Shown: one piece after another, positions 976-19,090 of the stretch
How the letters are laid out: each line of letters begins with the position of its first letter
Position numbering within the stretch: position 1 is the stretch's first letter
Source: Rosa chinensis
Taxonomy: Eukaryota > Streptophyta > Magnoliopsida > Rosales > Rosaceae
Length of the DNA stretch: 64,000 nt
Assembly (NCBI RefSeq): GCF_002994745.2
Contig: NC_037094.1
Location: forward strand, 10,601,001-10,665,000
Direction of reading: 5' to 3'
Position numbers and translations under genes: made by a program
The notes under the pieces: model-generated
The model's database searches: none
What the model saw: only the letters and a program-made list of their open reading frames with translations
Told to the model about the DNA's origin: nothing

Positions 976-3696
976 CGTGACAGGAGATTTCCTCAGGGTC
1001 AGTTTAGTGGACGCCCGTTTGGGCAGAGCAGAGTTGGTTTGGGTGGTCAGCACAGGGCTCCAACTAGGCAGCCAGCCCCGTTTGGGCAATATCAGTCAGT
1101 CGGATGCTTTGAGTGTGGACAGCAGGGCCACTTTAGGAGGGATTGTCCTCTATTGACTCAGAGAGCTGCATTTACTCCTTATCAGACCGGGGGTCAGTCT
1201 TCTGCCGGTACGTCTACTAGTGGTACAGTGGCTTCTACTGGCGGTACCCATCATAGTTCAGCAGCTCGTGGCAGCCCGCAGCGGGGTAGGGGTCAGAGAG
1301 GACGTCCTACCACTCAGGCTCGGTTGCATGCCATGACACAGCAGGAGGGCCACGACTCACCAGATGTTATCATTGGTACGTTGTCTGTTTTTGGTCAGCC
1401 TGCTTATACTTTAATTGATCCTGGTGCTTCGCATTCTTTTATGTCGAGTAGATTTGCATGTTTTGCGAATGTGCCATCATCACTCCTTATTGGTGAATGG
1501 AATGTATTATTACCTGCTGGAGCATCACTTAAGATAGAATGGGTTTTTAGAGGTTGTGATGTTTTGATTGAGGGTGTTAATTTGGAGGTTGATTTAATTC
1601 CATTAGACCTTGTTGAATTTGATGTGATTTTGGGGATGGAGTTCTTGGCGACTCATCGGGCCAATATTGATTGCTTTCGTAAGATTGTGGTCTTTCAAAG
1701 TCCAGGGAAGCCAATGATTACCTTTCAGGGAGAACGTAATGTTCTAGCTTCCTGTATGATTTCCGCTTTGACCGCTGAGAAGCTGTTGAAAAAGGGAAGT
1801 CAGGCTTATTTGGCACATGTGGTGGACACTAACAGGGAAGAGTTGAGTATTAGAGAGATACCAGTGGTTAGGAAATTTCCGGATGTATTTCCTGATGAAT
1901 TACCTGGTTTACCTCCTGCTAGGGAGATAGATTTCACTATTGATTTACTCCCTGGCACCACACCCATATCTTTGGCACCATACAGAATGGGCCCAGCTGA
2001 ATTAAGAGAGTTGAAGATTCAGTTGCAAGAACTAGTGGATAAGGGGTTCATCCAATCTAGTGTGTCTCCTTGGGGTGCCCCAGTTTTATTTGTTAAGAAG
2101 AAGGATGGCTCTTTACGGTTGTGCATTGATTATCGAAAGTTGAATAGGGTTACTGTGAAGAATAAATACCCTTTGCCTCGTATTGACGACCTCTTTGACC
2201 AGTTGAGGGGAGCCAAGGTCTTTTCCAAGATCGATTTGAGGTCTGGTTACCATCAGTTGAGGATAAGAGAGTCTGATGTACCCAAGACTGCATTTCGATC
2301 ACGTTATGGGCACTATGAATTCAGAGTGATGCCGTTTGGATTGACTAATGCCCCTGCAGCTTTTATGGACCTCATGAATAGAGTGTTCCGTCCGTACCTT
2401 GATCGATTTGTGATTGTGTTCATTGATGATATCTTGGTGTATTCAAAGGACAATAGTCAACATGCCAAACATCTAAGGATTGTATTGCGGACTTTGAGGG
2501 AGGCCCAGTTATTTGCAAAGTTTAATAAATGTGAGTTTTGGCTGAATAGTATTGGATTCTTGGGTCATGTAGTATCTGCAGAAGGAATTAGTGTCGACCC
2601 TCAGAAGGTAGTGGCGGTGCTAAATTGGGAAAGACCTACCACAGTGACAGAGATACGTAGTTTCTTGGGATTGGCAGGTTATTACCGGCGATTTGTGCAA
2701 GATTTCTCAAAGATTGCAACTCCTCTTACTAGGTTGACTAGAAAGGGTGTGAAGTTTGTTTGGTTAGAAGAGTGTGAGCAAAGTTTTCAAGAACTCAAGA
2801 GGCGTTTAACTAGTGCTCCGGTCCTAGTTTTGCCAGATGATAGTGGGGAGTATGTGGTATACAGTGACGCCTCGAGGCAAGGCTTGGGTTGTGTTCTAAT
2901 GCAACATGGAAATGTGATTGCCTACGCCTCTAGACAATTGAAGCCACATGAGTTGAATTACCCGACACATGACCTTGAATTAGCTGCGGTAGTACTTGCA
3001 CTTAAACTTTGGATGCATTATTTATATGGAGCTCGGTGTCAAATCTTTACGGATCATAAGAGTCTTCAATATTTGCTCACACAAAAAGAGATTAATTTGA
3101 GGCAAAGAAGATGGTTGGAGTTGATTAAGGATTATGATTGCACGATTGAGTATCATCCAGGAAGGGCCAATGTGGTAGCTGACGCTCTTAGTAGGAAGAC
3201 ATATCCTTCCCTGTTGCCCTCCCCTTCCTTGTCACATATGAGAACAGTCCGGGTTCCCCTTCTTTATGAATTGCGAGCTACAGGAGTTAGTTTGGAAGGG
3301 ACTGATGAATTTGCAGCCTTAATAGCCAGCTTCCATGTGAGGCCAATTCTTATTGACAAAGTACGAGAGGCACAGCTGCATGATGAAGCTCTACAAGAAG
3401 TAAGAGAGGTAGTAGAGAATGGAGCTAGAGAAGATTTCATTGTTAGAGGGGATGGAGCTTTGATGTTTGGGAATAGAATTTGTGTACCCAAACAGGATGA
3501 TCTTAAACAGGAGATACTAGAGGAGGCTCATAGTTCTCCTTATGCCATGCATCCTGGTGGAACCAAAATGTATCGGACTCTTAAAGAATACTACTGGTGG
3601 TCCAACATGAAGAGGGAAATTGCAGATTTTGTACGAAGATGTCTGGTGTGTCAACAAGTGAAGACAGAAAGACAAAAGCCCTCAGGTTTATTATAG
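976..3696 (+). pseudogene. gypsy gag C-terminus, protease, RT, RNase H and integrase N-terminus
   Basis: This open frame encodes a gag zinc knuckle, [14 protein letters not shown] (CX2CX4HX4C, about 1105-1146), then a pepsin-like protease with DPGASHSF near 1419. Reverse transcriptase follows with FIDDILVYS (YVDD-box equivalent) near 2421-2447, then RNase H with YSDAS near 2860 and an integrase HHCC zinc region ending in CLVCQ near 3643-3657. The protease reads D-P-G where the family has D-S-G or D-T-G, a change next to the catalytic Asp. The frame ends at TAG 3694-3696, where relatives carry glutamine, consistent with a single C-to-T change. The same frame continues directly beyond it. Confidence 0.93.
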
Positions 3697-4226
3697 CCAT
3701 TGTCGATACCAGAGTGGAAGTGGGAACACATTACTATGGACTTTGTATCAGGACTACCACGTAGTCGGAATGGTCATGATAGCATTTGGGTAATTGTGGA
3801 CCGACTTACTAAGTCCGCACATTTCCTACCTGTCAGCAAGACTTATAAAATGGGTAAATATGCAAAGCTGTACATGAATGAGATAGTGAGACTTCATGGC
3901 ACACCCGTTTCTATTACTTCTGATCGTGATCCTCGCTTCACTTCAAAGTTTTGGAGTGAGCTGATGGAGGCTTTGGGCACTCAGCCTCAGTTTAGTACTG
4001 CATTTCATCCGCAAACAGATGGACAGACGGAAAGGACCATTCAAACACTGGAAGACATGTTGAGAGCTTGTGTTTTACAATTCAAGGGGAATTGGGATAA
4101 TCATGTTGCATTGATAGAGTTTGCTTATAATAACAGTTATCACTCCAGCATTGGTATGGCTCCTTATGAAGCCCTTTATGGCAAACAGTGTCGTACCCCT
4201 CTATGTTGGAATGAAGTAGGAGAGAG
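3697..4226 (+). pseudogene. gypsy integrase catalytic core, interrupted
   Basis: The DDE integrase core continues in the same frame as the upstream pol after the TAG stop. The first Asp is in ITMDFVSGLP (about 3730), the second in TSDRDPRF (about 3920), and the FHPQTDGQTERT block (about 4003) carries the glutamate. Coding ends at a target duplication GAGAG (4222-4226), where a palindromic element interrupts a codon. Removing the palindrome and one GAGAG copy would join codon bases 4225-4226 to 7772 in frame, so the insertion itself caused no deletion. Confidence 0.92.
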
Positions 4227-6006
4227 TGATTACACGCATTTATATACGTGTAATTATATCTAAAACACTAGAATTAAGCTAATCCTCAAGTCAATTTTTA
4301 TGTAATTAATCCATTTTTATTTATTGTATAGGAAATAAGCGGAATTGCGGAAACGTGAGAAATTGGCGCGAAATTGGAGTAATTTGGAGATTTCGGCAAA
4401 ATGACAAAATAATAGAACATCGGTCAACCACAGTCAACACGAGTAACGAAGGCGAATCCGATTATTTCAAAATTATGTCATTCGGGTGTGGTTTATGATT
4501 GGAAGAAGAAAATAATAATAATATAAATTAGCAATGAAAGAAATGGAGCAGCTTAATTAATTAAGCATTGCTTAATTGCATAATTAAGCTTCCGTTTTCT
4601 TTTATTCACGCAGGATGCAGCTCCACCCTTTCTTAATTAAACTAATGTTTAATTAAATGAAAGGAGCACCACATCACGTGCACAGCATATCCACTCTCAT
4701 ACCTTTTCATTCACCACCACATGATCTTCATAACCGAACAAAACCCTTATCTCTTCTATATATATATATTCATCTCAGCCTCTTCTCCAGACAGACCCTT
4801 ATTTTTCTACAGCGCCGCACCACCGAGAAAAAATAGAGGCAGCCCTTTGGGGCTGCTCTCTCTCCCTCCTTCCCTTCCATTTTTCTTATTTTGTTTAGTT
4901 TTCTTTTGGGTATTTAGAGGATTCTCACTCAAGCTTCAAAGAATTATCATCAAGAGTATCACACCTTAATTTAGGTAGTTGGGTGAAGAAATTGCTTGAT
5001 TCATACTAGCTCATAGCTAGAAGTGACCAAGCTAATTCTCCCATCTCTTCCTTATTATCTATTTCATAATTTTTATATACTTTTGTTGATGAATTCTTGT
5101 ATGGGTTGTGAGTAATTCAATTTTGGGAGTTAGGGTTGTGAAGCTCTAACTCATATTGTATAAATATTGATGCTTTAATTTTAATAAATGCAATTTTCAT
5201 TGTGTATGCTTTAAATCCGAATTTATTGGTCCTTAGAAGCATGTTTCTAGGCTTTGTCACCCTTTGAAATTATGTTGTGGGCAATTGTGATGAATAGATT
5301 GATAAATTGACAACTTATTGGTCTTGTGGCATCTAGGATTTAAGTGTGGTAACCATTAGCTAGCTTAATTGTAGCTAAGCTTGCTTGGGTCTCTATTATC
5401 TTGCACTCTAGGCCTCTAATTTTAGATATTGCGGCCTTAACCGGCGTAATGCCTAAGTTAGAGAGTTGATTGTGGCCCTAACCGGCATAGTCAATACACT
5501 GAAAGGATAATTGGTTTAGTAGCCTTAACCGGTACTAGATACGGGACTTAACACATATAGGAAATGCATGCATTTATGAAATTGACATCGATATTTGTAA
5601 GAGAGTTAGTGTGAATCACCCGACACTCCCATATTCCCATTAATTTGAAAATCCAAATTTAATTTTCTAGCTCGTTAATTAGTTGTTTAGTTTACTTTTC
5701 GGTTGCATTTAGTTTAGTTAATCCACAATTCAAAACTTCATACAATTTCGACTCATTTGTTTATATCCACCACTAGGCTCTTAGTTTTGATTAGGCTTTG
5801 GTGAAAACCAAAGCCGAGCATTGCTAAGGCTTGGTGCCTTAGATTAGTATTTTTATTTATTTTCTTTGTTTGGTAAGTGTCTTTATTTCCGATTACCCAA
5901 GGATTGTGGGTTAGCCACTAATCCCCGTGGTACGATAAACTTTGGGCATAATATTTCCCTATCTTGACAATGATACGTACGCTTGCGTAAATGTGTATCC
6001 AAGTCA
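4227..6006 (+). repeat. Complete LTR, plus orientation (left half of palindrome)
   Basis: This 1,780-bp unit starts TG and ends CA next to a primer-binding site, as a 5' LTR does. The AT-rich first 530 bp (U3-like) leads to a TATA run, then a U5-like region rich in short hairpins and ACCGG-type repeats at about 5440-5535. Bases 5960-6006, the last 47 bp of U5, exist only in this half, because the inverted half starts inside U5. I see no open reading frame of interest. Confidence 0.85.
4757..4769 (+). promoter_or_regulatory. TATA box of the left LTR
   Basis: A run of alternating TA residues (CTATATATATATA) lies about 530 bp from the LTR start, followed by a pyrimidine-rich stretch. This is where a retroelement LTR promoter is expected. 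The inverted arm carries the same box near 7224-7236 on the minus strand, so both would fire toward the palindrome centre. Confidence 0.6.
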
Positions 6007-6007
6007 A

Positions 6008-6025
6008 TGGCGCCGTTGCCGGGGA
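6008..6025 (+). promoter_or_regulatory. Primer-binding site, tRNA-Asp type, at the palindrome loop
   Basis: TGGCGCCGTTGCCGGGGA is an exact 18-nt complement of the 3' end of plant tRNA-Asp(GUC) including CCA, as I recall that tRNA. It starts one base after the LTR's terminal CA. Athila/Tat-type gypsy elements commonly use this primer. The inverted arm begins within its last four bases, which is where plus-strand strong-stop DNA ends after copying 18 nt of the tRNA. Confidence 0.85.
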
Positions 6026-7766
6026 AATATTATGCCCAAAGTTTATCGTACCACGGGGATTAGTGGCTAACCCACAATCCTTGGGTAATCGGAAATAAAG
6101 ACACTTACCAAACAAAGAAAAGAAAAAGAAAATAAATAAAAATACTAATCTAAGGCACCAAGCCTTAGCAATGCTCGGCTTTGGTTTTCACCAAAGCCTA
6201 ATCAAAACTAAGAGCCTAGTGGTGGATATAAACAAATGAGTCGAAATTGTATGAAGTTTTGAATTGTGGATTAACTAAACTAAATGCAACCGAAAAGTAA
6301 ACTAAACAACTAATTAACGAACTAGAAAATTAAATTTGGATTTTCAAATTAATGGGAATATGGGAGTGTCGGGTGATTCACACTAACTCTCTTACAAATA
6401 TCGATGTCAATTTCATAAATGCATGCATTTCCTATATGTGTTAAGTCCCGTATCTAGTACCGGTTAAGGCTACTAAACCAATTATCCTTTCAGTGTATTG
6501 ACTATGCCGGTTAGGGCCACAATCAACTCTCTAACTTAGGCATTACGCCGGTTAAGGCCGCAATATCTAAAATTAGAGGCCTAGAGTGCAAGATAATAGA
6601 GACCCAAGCAAGCTTAGCTACAATTAAGCTAGCTAATGGTTACCACACTTAAATCCTAGATGCCACAAGACCAATAAGTTGTCAATTTATCAATCTATTC
6701 ATCACAATTGCCCACAACATAATTTCAAAGGGTGACAAAGCCTAGAAACATGCTTCTAAGGACCAATAAATTCGGATTTAAAGCATACACAATGAAAATT
6801 GCATTTATTAAAATTAAAGCATCAATATTTATACAATATGAGTTAGAGCTTCACAACCCTAACTCCCAAAATTGAATTACTCACAACCCATACAAGAATT
6901 CATCAACAAAAGTATATAAAAATTATGAAATAGATAATAAGGAAGAGAGGGGAGAATTAGCTTGGTCACTTCTAGCTATGAGCTAGTATGAATCAAGCAA
7001 TTTCTTCACCCAACTACCTAAATTAAGGTGTGATACTCTTGATGATAATTCTTTGAAGCTTGAGTGAGAATCCTCTAAATACCCAAAAGAAAACTAAACA
7101 AAATAAGAAAAACGGAAGGGAAGGAGGGAGAGAGAGCAGCCCCAAAGGGCTGCCTCTATTTTTTTCTCGGTGGTGCGGCGCTGTAGAAAAATAAGGGTCT
7201 GTCTGGAGAAGAGGCTGAGATGAATATATATATATAGAAGAGATAAGGGTTTTGTTCGGTTATGAAGATCATGTGGTGGTGAATGAAAAGGTATGAGAGT
7301 GGATATGCTGTGCACGTGATGTGGTGCTCCTTTCATTTAATTAAACATTAGTTTAATTAAGAAAGGGTGGAGCTGCATCCTGCGTGAATAAAAGAAAACG
7401 GAAGCTTAATTATGCAATTAAGCAATGCTTAATTAATTAAGCTGCTCCATTTCTTTCATTGCTAATTAATATTATTATTATTTTCTTCTTCCAATCATAA
7501 ACCACACCCGAATGACATAATTTTGAAATAATCGGATTCGCCTTCGTTACTCGTGTTGACTGTGGTTGACCGATGTTCTATTATTTTGTCATTTTGCCGA
7601 AATCTCCAAATTACTCCAATTTCGCGCCAATTTCTCACGTTTCCGCAATTCCGCTTATTTCCTATACAATAAATAAAAATGGATTAATTACATAAAAATT
7701 GACTTGAGGATTAGCTTAATTCTAGTGTTTTAGATATAATTACACGTATATAAATGCGTGTAATCA
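6022..7766 (-). repeat. Inverted, 3'-truncated copy of the same LTR (right half)
   Basis: On the minus strand this copy starts at the LTR's TG end (7766) and runs to GGGAAAT at 6022-6028, lacking the last 47 bp of U5. It carries an extra 11-12 bp in a T/C-rich stretch near 6115-6130 compared with the left arm. Substitutions are visible near 4518/7468, 5042/6950 and 4880/7113. A transcript crossing both arms would fold into a hairpin of about 1.7 kb. Confidence 0.88.
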
Positions 7767-8321
7767 GAGAGGAAGCTCATTGGTCCAGAATTGGTACGAG
7801 TTACGACTGAAAAGGTCAACCTGATCAAGGAGAAACTAAGAACGGCTCAAAGTAGACAGAAAAGTTATGCTGATAACAGAAGAAAGGATTTGGAGTTTCA
7901 AGTGGGTGACTGGGTATTCTTGAAGCTGTCTCCTTGGAAGGGCATTATAAGATTTGGGAAACGAGGGAAACTTAGCCCTCGATATATCGGACCATATGAG
8001 ATCACGGAGCGGATTGGTGCAGTTGCTTATCGTTTAGCACTACCTCCGAGACTATCTAGAGTACATGATGTCTTTCATGTCTCTATGCTTCGCAAGTATA
8101 TTGCAGATCCCTCTCATGTTCTCCAAGAACAACCTATCCGATTGAGAGAAAATTTGACATATGAAGAACAACCGGTTCAAATACTTGATAGGAGGGAGCA
8201 GATACTCAGAAACAAAACAATACCCTTGGTCAAGGTGCTTTGGAGCAATCACATGGTGGAGGAAGCTACTTGGGAACCCGAGGAGCAAATGAGGAAGCAG
8301 TATCCTCACCTTTTTGGCTAG
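7767..8321 (+). pseudogene. gypsy integrase C-terminus and chromodomain
   Basis: After the target duplication the integrase resumes in frame at 7773 and ends at TAG 8319-8321. It includes the GPY/F-type segment GPYEITERIG (about 7990), the SRVHDVFHVSMLRKY block (about 8055-8100) and a chromodomain-like end with LVKVLWSNH and EATWEPEEQM (about 8225-8295). Chromodomains target chromoviruses to heterochromatin. This segment has no start codon of its own in the family; it is the severed tail of pol. Confidence 0.9.
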
Positions 8322-17864: not shown

Positions 17865-17944
17865 AAGTTCATCTTAGAGAAGCTTATTGATTTGATGATT
17901 AAATGCAACTTACGAGCAATAAGGGCACAGTCATCAAAGAAGTG

Positions 17945-19090
17945 GGAAATATTTGAACCCGAAATTATCGTACCACGGGGATTGAAAAGCTAACTTCAAT
18001 CCTTGGTTATGCTGATTACTAAGTCACCAAAAATTTAACAAACAAAACCTAGAAAAATAGCACCAAGCTATTTACATGCCTGGCTCTGAACAACCAAGCC
18101 TAAAATTGGTCAAGAGAACCATAAGTGAATGCGGAAAACTCACAACCAAATGGTATGGACAATGAAAGTGGTTTGTGAAATTTGATTTTTGATTTTGAAA
18201 AATAAAATTGACAATTGAAAATTAAAATTGTAACTAAGAATAAAGATAATAGAAACTTATCAAGAATTGGAAATTAGGTCACTAGGGTATCCTCCTAGCC
18301 AAACTTAATGCACAAATATATTCTGACAATGGTCGTTCAATTCATAGTGGCATCAAGAACCGTACCCAAGGCTTTTCAAGGCTTATGGGTCAATAGATTT
18401 CTTAAAGGGTATTCCTACTCCGGATCAAGGGTCGTAGAAACTCAATTGGGACAATCTAGAACCTTGTTAGGGTCTCTAGTTGCACCAAAAGGCGAAGAGT
18501 CCTAGAATCAAGGTTCCCAAGCTAGCCAATATGGCAATCGAAATTAGTATTGTAACTAACCATGTTCTAAACAAGTATCCTAGCCATAAATTAGAGAAGT
18601 GATTAGGTCCCCTAATTTTTCTAGACATGCTCATCTACACATTCAAGAGTTAATCAAGCTCCTAAGCATGCATCTAAGCCAAATATTATAGAATAGAACA
18701 TGTGCCAAACAGGAAATTGAAAACCATTAAATCAAAACATATTTATTACATTAAATCCATGCTAGGGCTCAAACCCTAGTTTTCTAAATAAACTACTCAC
18801 TACCCATCAACTAATCAACAACAATATTCATCAAATTAAAGAGAGAAAGGTGAAGAGAAGTGAGAAGTAACAAGAACAAGTCACAAATTGCTATGGAGCA
18901 ATTATGACAAGCCTTGATTTATGGCTTCTCACTTTTATCCAAACTCAAATCTTGATGCTCCTTGACAAATTGATGAAGCTTTGTTGGTGTGGGTGTGAGA
19001 AAAGAAAAATAAAATGGAAGAGGAAGAGATTGGGAGAGTTGGCAAAGTTGTGCCAATACCGCCCAACACCAAACCAATTGGTCACAAACG
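17945..19090 (-). mobile_element. Fragment of an LTR related to the palindrome's LTR, inside copia 2
   Basis: From GGGAAATATT (17943 on) through ATCGTACCACGGGGATT the sequence follows the start of the palindrome's right arm (6022-6060). It then shows parallel features: a CACCAAGC hairpin, a CCGGATC/ACCGG region, and a block near 18950-18985 like 7033-7065. Identity is low. It occupies the place of the copia integrase, and about 1.8 kb present in copia 1 is missing here. I could not find a clean target duplication. It looks like the U5/R side of a diverged minus-orientation LTR. Confidence 0.55.

Follow-up and report, generated by a model that had tools for sequence, protein, structure and literature searches.

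Structure of the insert and its target site

The window analysed here is a stretch of 64,000 nucleotides of the Rosa chinensis genome (C7:10601001-10665000), and genome searches covered the 53 contigs of the assembly (515 Mb). At positions 4227-7766 it contains an insert composed of a long terminal repeat (LTR), an 18-nt copy of the tRNA-Asp primer site, and the same LTR in inverted orientation, the whole lying between GAGAG duplications, as established by reading of the letters and by alignment. The left LTR (4227..6006, plus strand; 1,780 bp) is complete (U3-R-U5, TG...CA), beginning with TGATTACACG and ending with CCAAGTCA. A single extra A at 6007 stands between the LTR end and an exact 18-nt tRNA-Asp primer-binding site (6008..6025, plus strand), the sole such site in the window at ≤3 mismatches. 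The inverted LTR (6022..7766, minus strand) terminates at a U3 terminus and is the reverse complement of 4227-5959, save for the arm differences described below; it is without the last 47 bp of U5, which are present only once in the insert. These findings bear out the palindrome claimed in a preliminary description of this DNA: an LTR, an exact tRNA-Asp primer site, and the LTR inverted minus 47 bp, flanked by GAGAG.

At the junction, the motif GGGA (6022..6025, plus strand) is common to the end of the primer site and the inverted arm, and alignment together with fold prediction points to TCCC in U5 (5956..5959, plus strand) as the putative priming site. The undoubled centre between these motifs (5960..6021, plus strand; 62 nt) consists of the last 47 bp of U5, the A, and 14 nt of the primer site, and it includes an imperfect inverted repeat (5964..6007). 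This repeat, at the U5 end and adjoining the primer site, is nearly unchanged in many of the fetched relatives and may help in presenting the primer site or favour strand pairing. By eye, a TATA-like run was recognized in U3 (4757..4770, plus strand), which would place the start of R at roughly 4.79-4.8 kb, and an AATAAA (5183..5188, plus strand) is a possible polyadenylation signal near the end of R. The list of open reading frames for the window includes none of at least 150 aa wholly within the insert. Elsewhere in the window, a 66-bp fragment (17944-18009, minus strand) is ~80% like the U5 region, and the primer site is absent from it at ≤3 mismatches.

The insert interrupts a Ty3/gypsy pol gene. 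To its left lie the protease, reverse transcriptase, RNase H, and integrase domains (1039..4226, plus strand), as determined from the open reading frames and domain matches, with the integrase core (rve) scoring 28.8 bits, under the curated cut-off of 32.6; to its right, the frame contains the integrase C-terminal SH3-like domain and a weak chromo match (7772..8321, plus strand). When joined, the two flanks (120+120 nt) are open in frame, reading ...NEVGERKLIGPELVR..., and a genome search located the unbroken empty site in 27 other copies of the host pol, with 2-3 mismatches each (the reversed control query gave 0 matches in the genome). From the letters alone, the overlap between the flanks could be 1, 3, or 5 bases; the 5-base overlap is preferred because it fits both the reading frame and the 27 empty copies. 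The GAGAG duplication noted in the preliminary description (4222..4226 and 7767..7771) is present, each copy adjoining a U3 end of the insert. A 5-bp target duplication beside TG...CA ends is the mark of an integrase product, in keeping with the earlier claim that two U3 ends were integrated with no internal genes.

Arm divergence, mosaic LTR, and genomic relatives

Across an alignment of 1,745 columns the two arms share 99.1% identity; they are distinguished by substitutions at four positions (4525, 4879, 5043, and 5671), by one base gained or lost within an A run (4827), and by an indel of 11 bp at 5859. When relatives are aligned against the right arm, position 4525 is T in 15 of 17 rows, position 4879 is A in 48 of 56, and position 5043 is C in 44 of 52 (the left-arm A occurring in three); position 5671 is ambiguous, with T in 29 and C in 12 of 41, and all of these counts are of rows that take in overlapping loci, such that the copies are not independent. 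The 11-bp short form of the left arm occurs in none of the aligned relative rows shown, and other indels do occur there. Since the relatives mostly carry the other arm's letter, most of the changes look private to one arm, suggesting that the arms were probably identical at birth, in which case the window locus by itself does not demand two molecules. Aligning the arms for dating, as had been proposed, gave a divergence of K = 0.0023, corresponding to about 90-165 thousand years at substitution rates of 1.3e-8 and 7e-9 per site per year; this age could be too young if gene conversion acted between the arms.

The window LTR is itself a mosaic, with a U3 like that of two relatives (L068 and L069) and an R-U5 like that of two others (L025 and L029, ~95%), the breakpoint falling at about 4871-4900. 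L068 is 100% identical to the window LTR in the 60-bp bins from 181 to 600, and L069 is 98.6% identical across 560 bp. The seam thus separates two LTR subfamilies roughly 100-140 nt beyond the TATA-like run, inside the probable R, close to the region in which a seam could result from a first strand transfer that passed from one RNA to another. Because it is common to both arms, the mosaic predates their joining.

The LTRs of the wider family are numerous, with 1,795 first-look candidates for the query 4227-5700, of which the best 40 were scored. Among these 40, no LTR exceeded about 96% over more than half of the query, and the parent element with normal LTRs that the preliminary description had sought was not found; the closest U3 copies were L068 (C1:56.80 Mb, a solo LTR) and L069 (C4:4.20 Mb, matching over the first 560 bp), and the closest R-U5 copies were about 95-96% identical. 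Four relatives (L026-L029, C2:87461267-87468533) form tandem LTR units at a spacing of 1,897 bp.

The palindrome junction occurs once at ≤3 mismatches in the 515 Mb, indicating one event rather than the foldback family that the proposed search for the same junction might have revealed, and a scan of viral contigs for the junction gave 0 matches. TCAA followed by the exact primer site is present in 112 copies, and only three of these 112 have A, C, or G as the next base: the window, L077, and C2:36420752. This small number also limits the foldback junctions that the other five TCCC sites of the strand would predict. Neither of the last two places was retained as a foldback, L077 being a one-base variant of the normal leader and C2:36420752 (L078, C2:36418400-36423400) having ~40 nt of direct U3 right after the primer site, then internal sequence. 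A foldback at the alternative predicted site, TCCCC at 5922, had 0 genome matches at ≤3 mismatches.

A second locus and primer sites extended into tRNA-Asp

A second insert, at C4:13609578-13613538 (L080, L082-L087), also consists of a U3-ended pair of inverted LTRs; here the duplication is TCGAT, and a copy of tRNA-Asp occupies the middle. Its outer ends are TGATTACACG at 13609578 and an inverted U3 end at 13613538, with TCGAT flanking each; the flank overlap by letters is 1 or 5. The central copy comprises all 75 nt of tRNA-Asp, including CCA, with one mismatch near its end. The two LTRs, measuring 1,898 and 1,968 bp as taken from the end positions, share 71% identity across 250 columns of U5 and 79% across about 200 nt at the U3 ends, and elsewhere in the genome the right U5 has LTR matches of 95-99%. 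Because the C4 LTRs differ by >20% in the compared parts, the joining of two molecules is indicated in the Rosa chinensis genome; to judge from these sequences, two different cDNAs were probably joined at this locus.

At ≤2 mismatches, a primer site continuing into further tRNA-Asp sequence was found at eight places in the genome, and the letters were inspected at all eight, at some of them for only the 180 nt from the primer site onward. Three of the eight lead from the tRNA copy into an inverted LTR: C4:13611473, C5:18921958 (L088), and C4:6236418 (L089), the last two being candidate cases in which the left LTR is known from 4 bases before the primer site. The C4 junction contains a short tRNA patchwork, and C5:18921958 has part of its U5 end missing; polymerase slippage or end joining could be responsible for both. 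At C2:18397197 (L074), an LTR end extended by tRNA sequence is opposed to a leader, primer site, and LTR in inverted orientation. Neither a left U3 end nor a convincing duplication was found at C2:18393000-18402000, and the locus is not included among the proven integrated cases.

The remaining four places (L073, L075, L079, and L081) continue in direct orientation or into other sequence. L073 (C6:3.02 Mb) and L075 (C1:62.42 Mb) have ~55 and ~75 nt, respectively, of tRNA-Asp copy after the primer site, then other sequence, with the U3 of a second, direct LTR downstream, as if plus-strand synthesis had read into the tRNA and then been transferred elsewhere. At L081 (C6:37375197, minus strand), a ~64-nt tRNA copy with mismatches leads into another U5 end with its primer site, both in direct orientation.

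Origin of the inverted pair and comparison with known systems

In reverse transcription, plus-strand strong-stop DNA begins at the U3 terminus and stops where the 18-nt primer copy is complete. The left half of the insert has these same limits: it starts at the U3 terminus, runs through U3-R-U5, and closes with precisely the primer copy, whose final 4 bases also belong to the inverted arm. The right arm ends at the U3 terminus, as expected if synthesis had proceeded to the 5′ end of such a strand. The plus-strand strong-stop step is among those listed in PMC12789967. The proposal that the insert derives from this intermediate is accordingly in good agreement with the join falling at the end of the 18-nt primer copy. 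Whatever the route, plus-strand strong-stop DNA was almost certainly joined before integration, taking the three routes considered below (priming on a sister strand, snap-back, and end joining) together.

The pairing of GGGGA with TCCC that had been suggested holds for GGGA (6022-6025) on TCCC (5956-5959); the additional pair, G6021-T5960, is a wobble only. TCCC occurs seven times in the strand, and the site used is the one at 5956, a longer 6-nt match at 5922 having been left unused. A DNA fold prediction for the whole 1,799-nt strand places the 3′ base on T5956 with a probability of 0.45, compared with 0.025 at the longer match and ≤0.025 for every other base. Other folds weaken this prediction: that of 5900-6025 alone gave 0.32 for the 5956 pairing, with a lowest-energy form that lacks it, that of 5930-6025 was no better than that of shuffled sequences (76 of 200 as good, z -0.24), and 33 of 300 shuffled centres reached the observed pairing. 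The fold of 5700-6025 had z -2.65 with the strand end paired. In the homodimer predicted to be lowest in energy for 5956-6025, both 3′ GGGA ends are paired with TCCC of the opposite strand (-28.5 versus 2 × -9.8 kcal/mol). The dimer was also lower in the longer contexts 5930-6025 (-29.3 versus -20.4) and 5900-6025 (-44.3 versus -35.4), where neither the dimer nor the monomer lowest-energy form pairs GGGA with TCCC.

The reading favoured here, with a probability of roughly 0.6, is that each of two sister plus-strand strong-stop cDNAs was extended from its 3′ end on the U5 of the other, and that the resulting duplex was integrated. The strong-stop strand, comprising U3-R-U5 and the 18-nt primer copy, would be freed before the second strand transfer, and its 3′ GGGA would pair with TCCC 5956-5959 of a sister strand, aided by the inverted repeat at the U5 end. 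Polymerase would then copy back to the U3 terminus, leaving two blunt U3 ends and a mismatched 62-nt centre; integrase would insert the duplex into the gypsy pol gene by its two U3 ends, and one version of the centre would become fixed through repair or replication. The structure, the duplication, the empty site, the single occurrence of the junction, and the ends and centre of the C4 locus are observed, whereas the intermediate, the priming, the enzyme, and the order of these steps are what we infer. The likeness of the window arms counts against such priming in trans, in that the locus itself does not require two molecules, and one parent strand would be the simpler source if the U3/R-U5 mosaic (breakpoint ~4871-4900) arose in the same cycle.

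The snap-back of a single strand proposed in the preliminary description, in which the 3′ end folds on its own U5 and extends to the U3 end, accounts for the junction and the identity of the arms; it is also consistent with arm differences that are mostly private, with a mosaic common to both arms, and with the predicted cis fold that sets the 3′ end on T5956 (probability as given above). Because a self-folded strand is a hairpin with one open U3 end, snap-back alone does not predict a two-ended duplex, whereas priming on a sister strand gives two ends. A further step, whether opening of the hairpin, its replication, or its pairing with a second hairpin, would be required before the product had a second U3 end and could leave a 5-bp duplication. 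The same family also includes joins between different LTRs, and this route appears unlikely on balance. More doubtful still is host end joining, in which two short double-stranded LTR cDNAs would be ligated at their primer ends in the nucleus, by a microhomology-mediated or classical route, and then integrated. The 4-nt microhomology at the window junction speaks for it. So do the tRNA-extended junctions (C4:13611473, C5:18921958, and C4:6236418), which by eye have little microhomology, trimmed U5 or templated-looking filler, and which, given the tRNA patchwork at C4, look more like end joining than priming. However, the minus strand of the reverse-transcription intermediate is known to extend beyond U3. 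For a blunt U3 end to form, synthesis must therefore reach the 5′ end of the plus strand, a step that is part of priming and is missing from ligation.

Later rearrangement of an ordinary insertion, with its middle lost and one LTR inverted or gene-converted, is highly improbable. Palindromes and nested LTRs do rearrange in general, but here the inverted arm would need to begin where the primer site finishes and to stop precisely at the target duplication, placing U3 in the position that U5 occupies in an ordinary element, and the same outer geometry is repeated at the C4 locus. Arms so nearly identical could raise the suspicion of a fold-back artefact of the assembly or the reads, or of a family of foldback DNA transposons, but the likelihood of this is close to negligible: an artefact would repeat the flanking DNA, whereas the flanks differ and bear a duplication; the arms have their own differences, the junction is single, and the arms of the C4 locus differ from each other.

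Taken more broadly, the odds lean slightly towards tail-to-tail dimers of plus-strand strong-stop DNA being a recurrent, overlooked kind of LTR insertion, in which two reverse-transcription intermediates per particle join at their primer ends, sometimes after the whole tRNA has been copied, and are inserted via two U3 ends. If so, such loci would preserve in the chromosomes a trace of a reverse-transcription step that has otherwise been observed only in particles and extracts; the integrase of a plant element would be able to use two U3 ends, plus-strand synthesis would be able to traverse the entire primer tRNA, and strands of two subfamilies would meet before integration. With a U3 promoter facing inward at each end, such inserts would give long LTR hairpin transcripts that could silence the family in trans, and the inverted pair might plausibly supply double-stranded RNA directed at the family from which it came. 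A literature search at the level of titles and abstract openings, with subscription journals mostly outside its coverage, found no report of such an insertion, and we know of none.

Foldback and DIRS-type elements have inverted terminal sequences and form families, and DIRS elements use a tyrosine recombinase and leave no target duplication. The insert shares their inverted ends and differs in its unique junction and in arms that are LTRs of a family with direct-repeat LTRs. It is not a multi-copy inverted structure of the kind expected of a foldback DNA transposon, its junction occurring once (≤3 mismatches, 515 Mb), and assignment to DIRS disagrees with the presence of a duplication and of no open frame of at least 150 aa wholly in the insert. 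TRIM and LARD elements are non-autonomous, with direct LTRs, a primer site, and a polypurine tract. Part of this definition appears in PMC10886601. Like them, the insert has no coding region and would be mobilised in trans; unlike them, it is single-copy and has only a primer site between LTRs that are inverted, which excludes it from that class. A solo LTR likewise is a gene-less LTR between 5-bp duplications (e.g., L068, with ATGGT on each side), but the alignment shows two LTRs here rather than one, inverted and with a primer site, and the insert is not a product of LTR-LTR recombination.

Among Ty3/gypsy elements, the Athila/Calypso/Diaspora group has an 18-nt tRNA-Asp primer site just past a long TG...CA LTR, as does the insert, and a tRNA-Asp primer site is given for Diaspora and Calypso in PMC1142308. 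As described there, these elements have direct LTRs and a coding region, of which the insert has neither, and their primer site begins 5 bp past the LTR end, compared with one intervening base here (PMC1142308). Because the insert has no coding region, its Athila-type character is judged from the primer site and the long LTR. Self-priming of minus-strand strong-stop DNA in HIV-1 was reportedly described by Guo et al. in 1997. In PMC4668388, which treats this HIV-1 self-priming, the 3′ end of a strong-stop cDNA anneals to a site inside strong-stop DNA, and its extension yields aberrant products, as suggested for the insert; the HIV-1 reaction involves the minus strand at the R hairpin, whereas the insert involves the plus strand at the primer-site end, with a product that was integrated.
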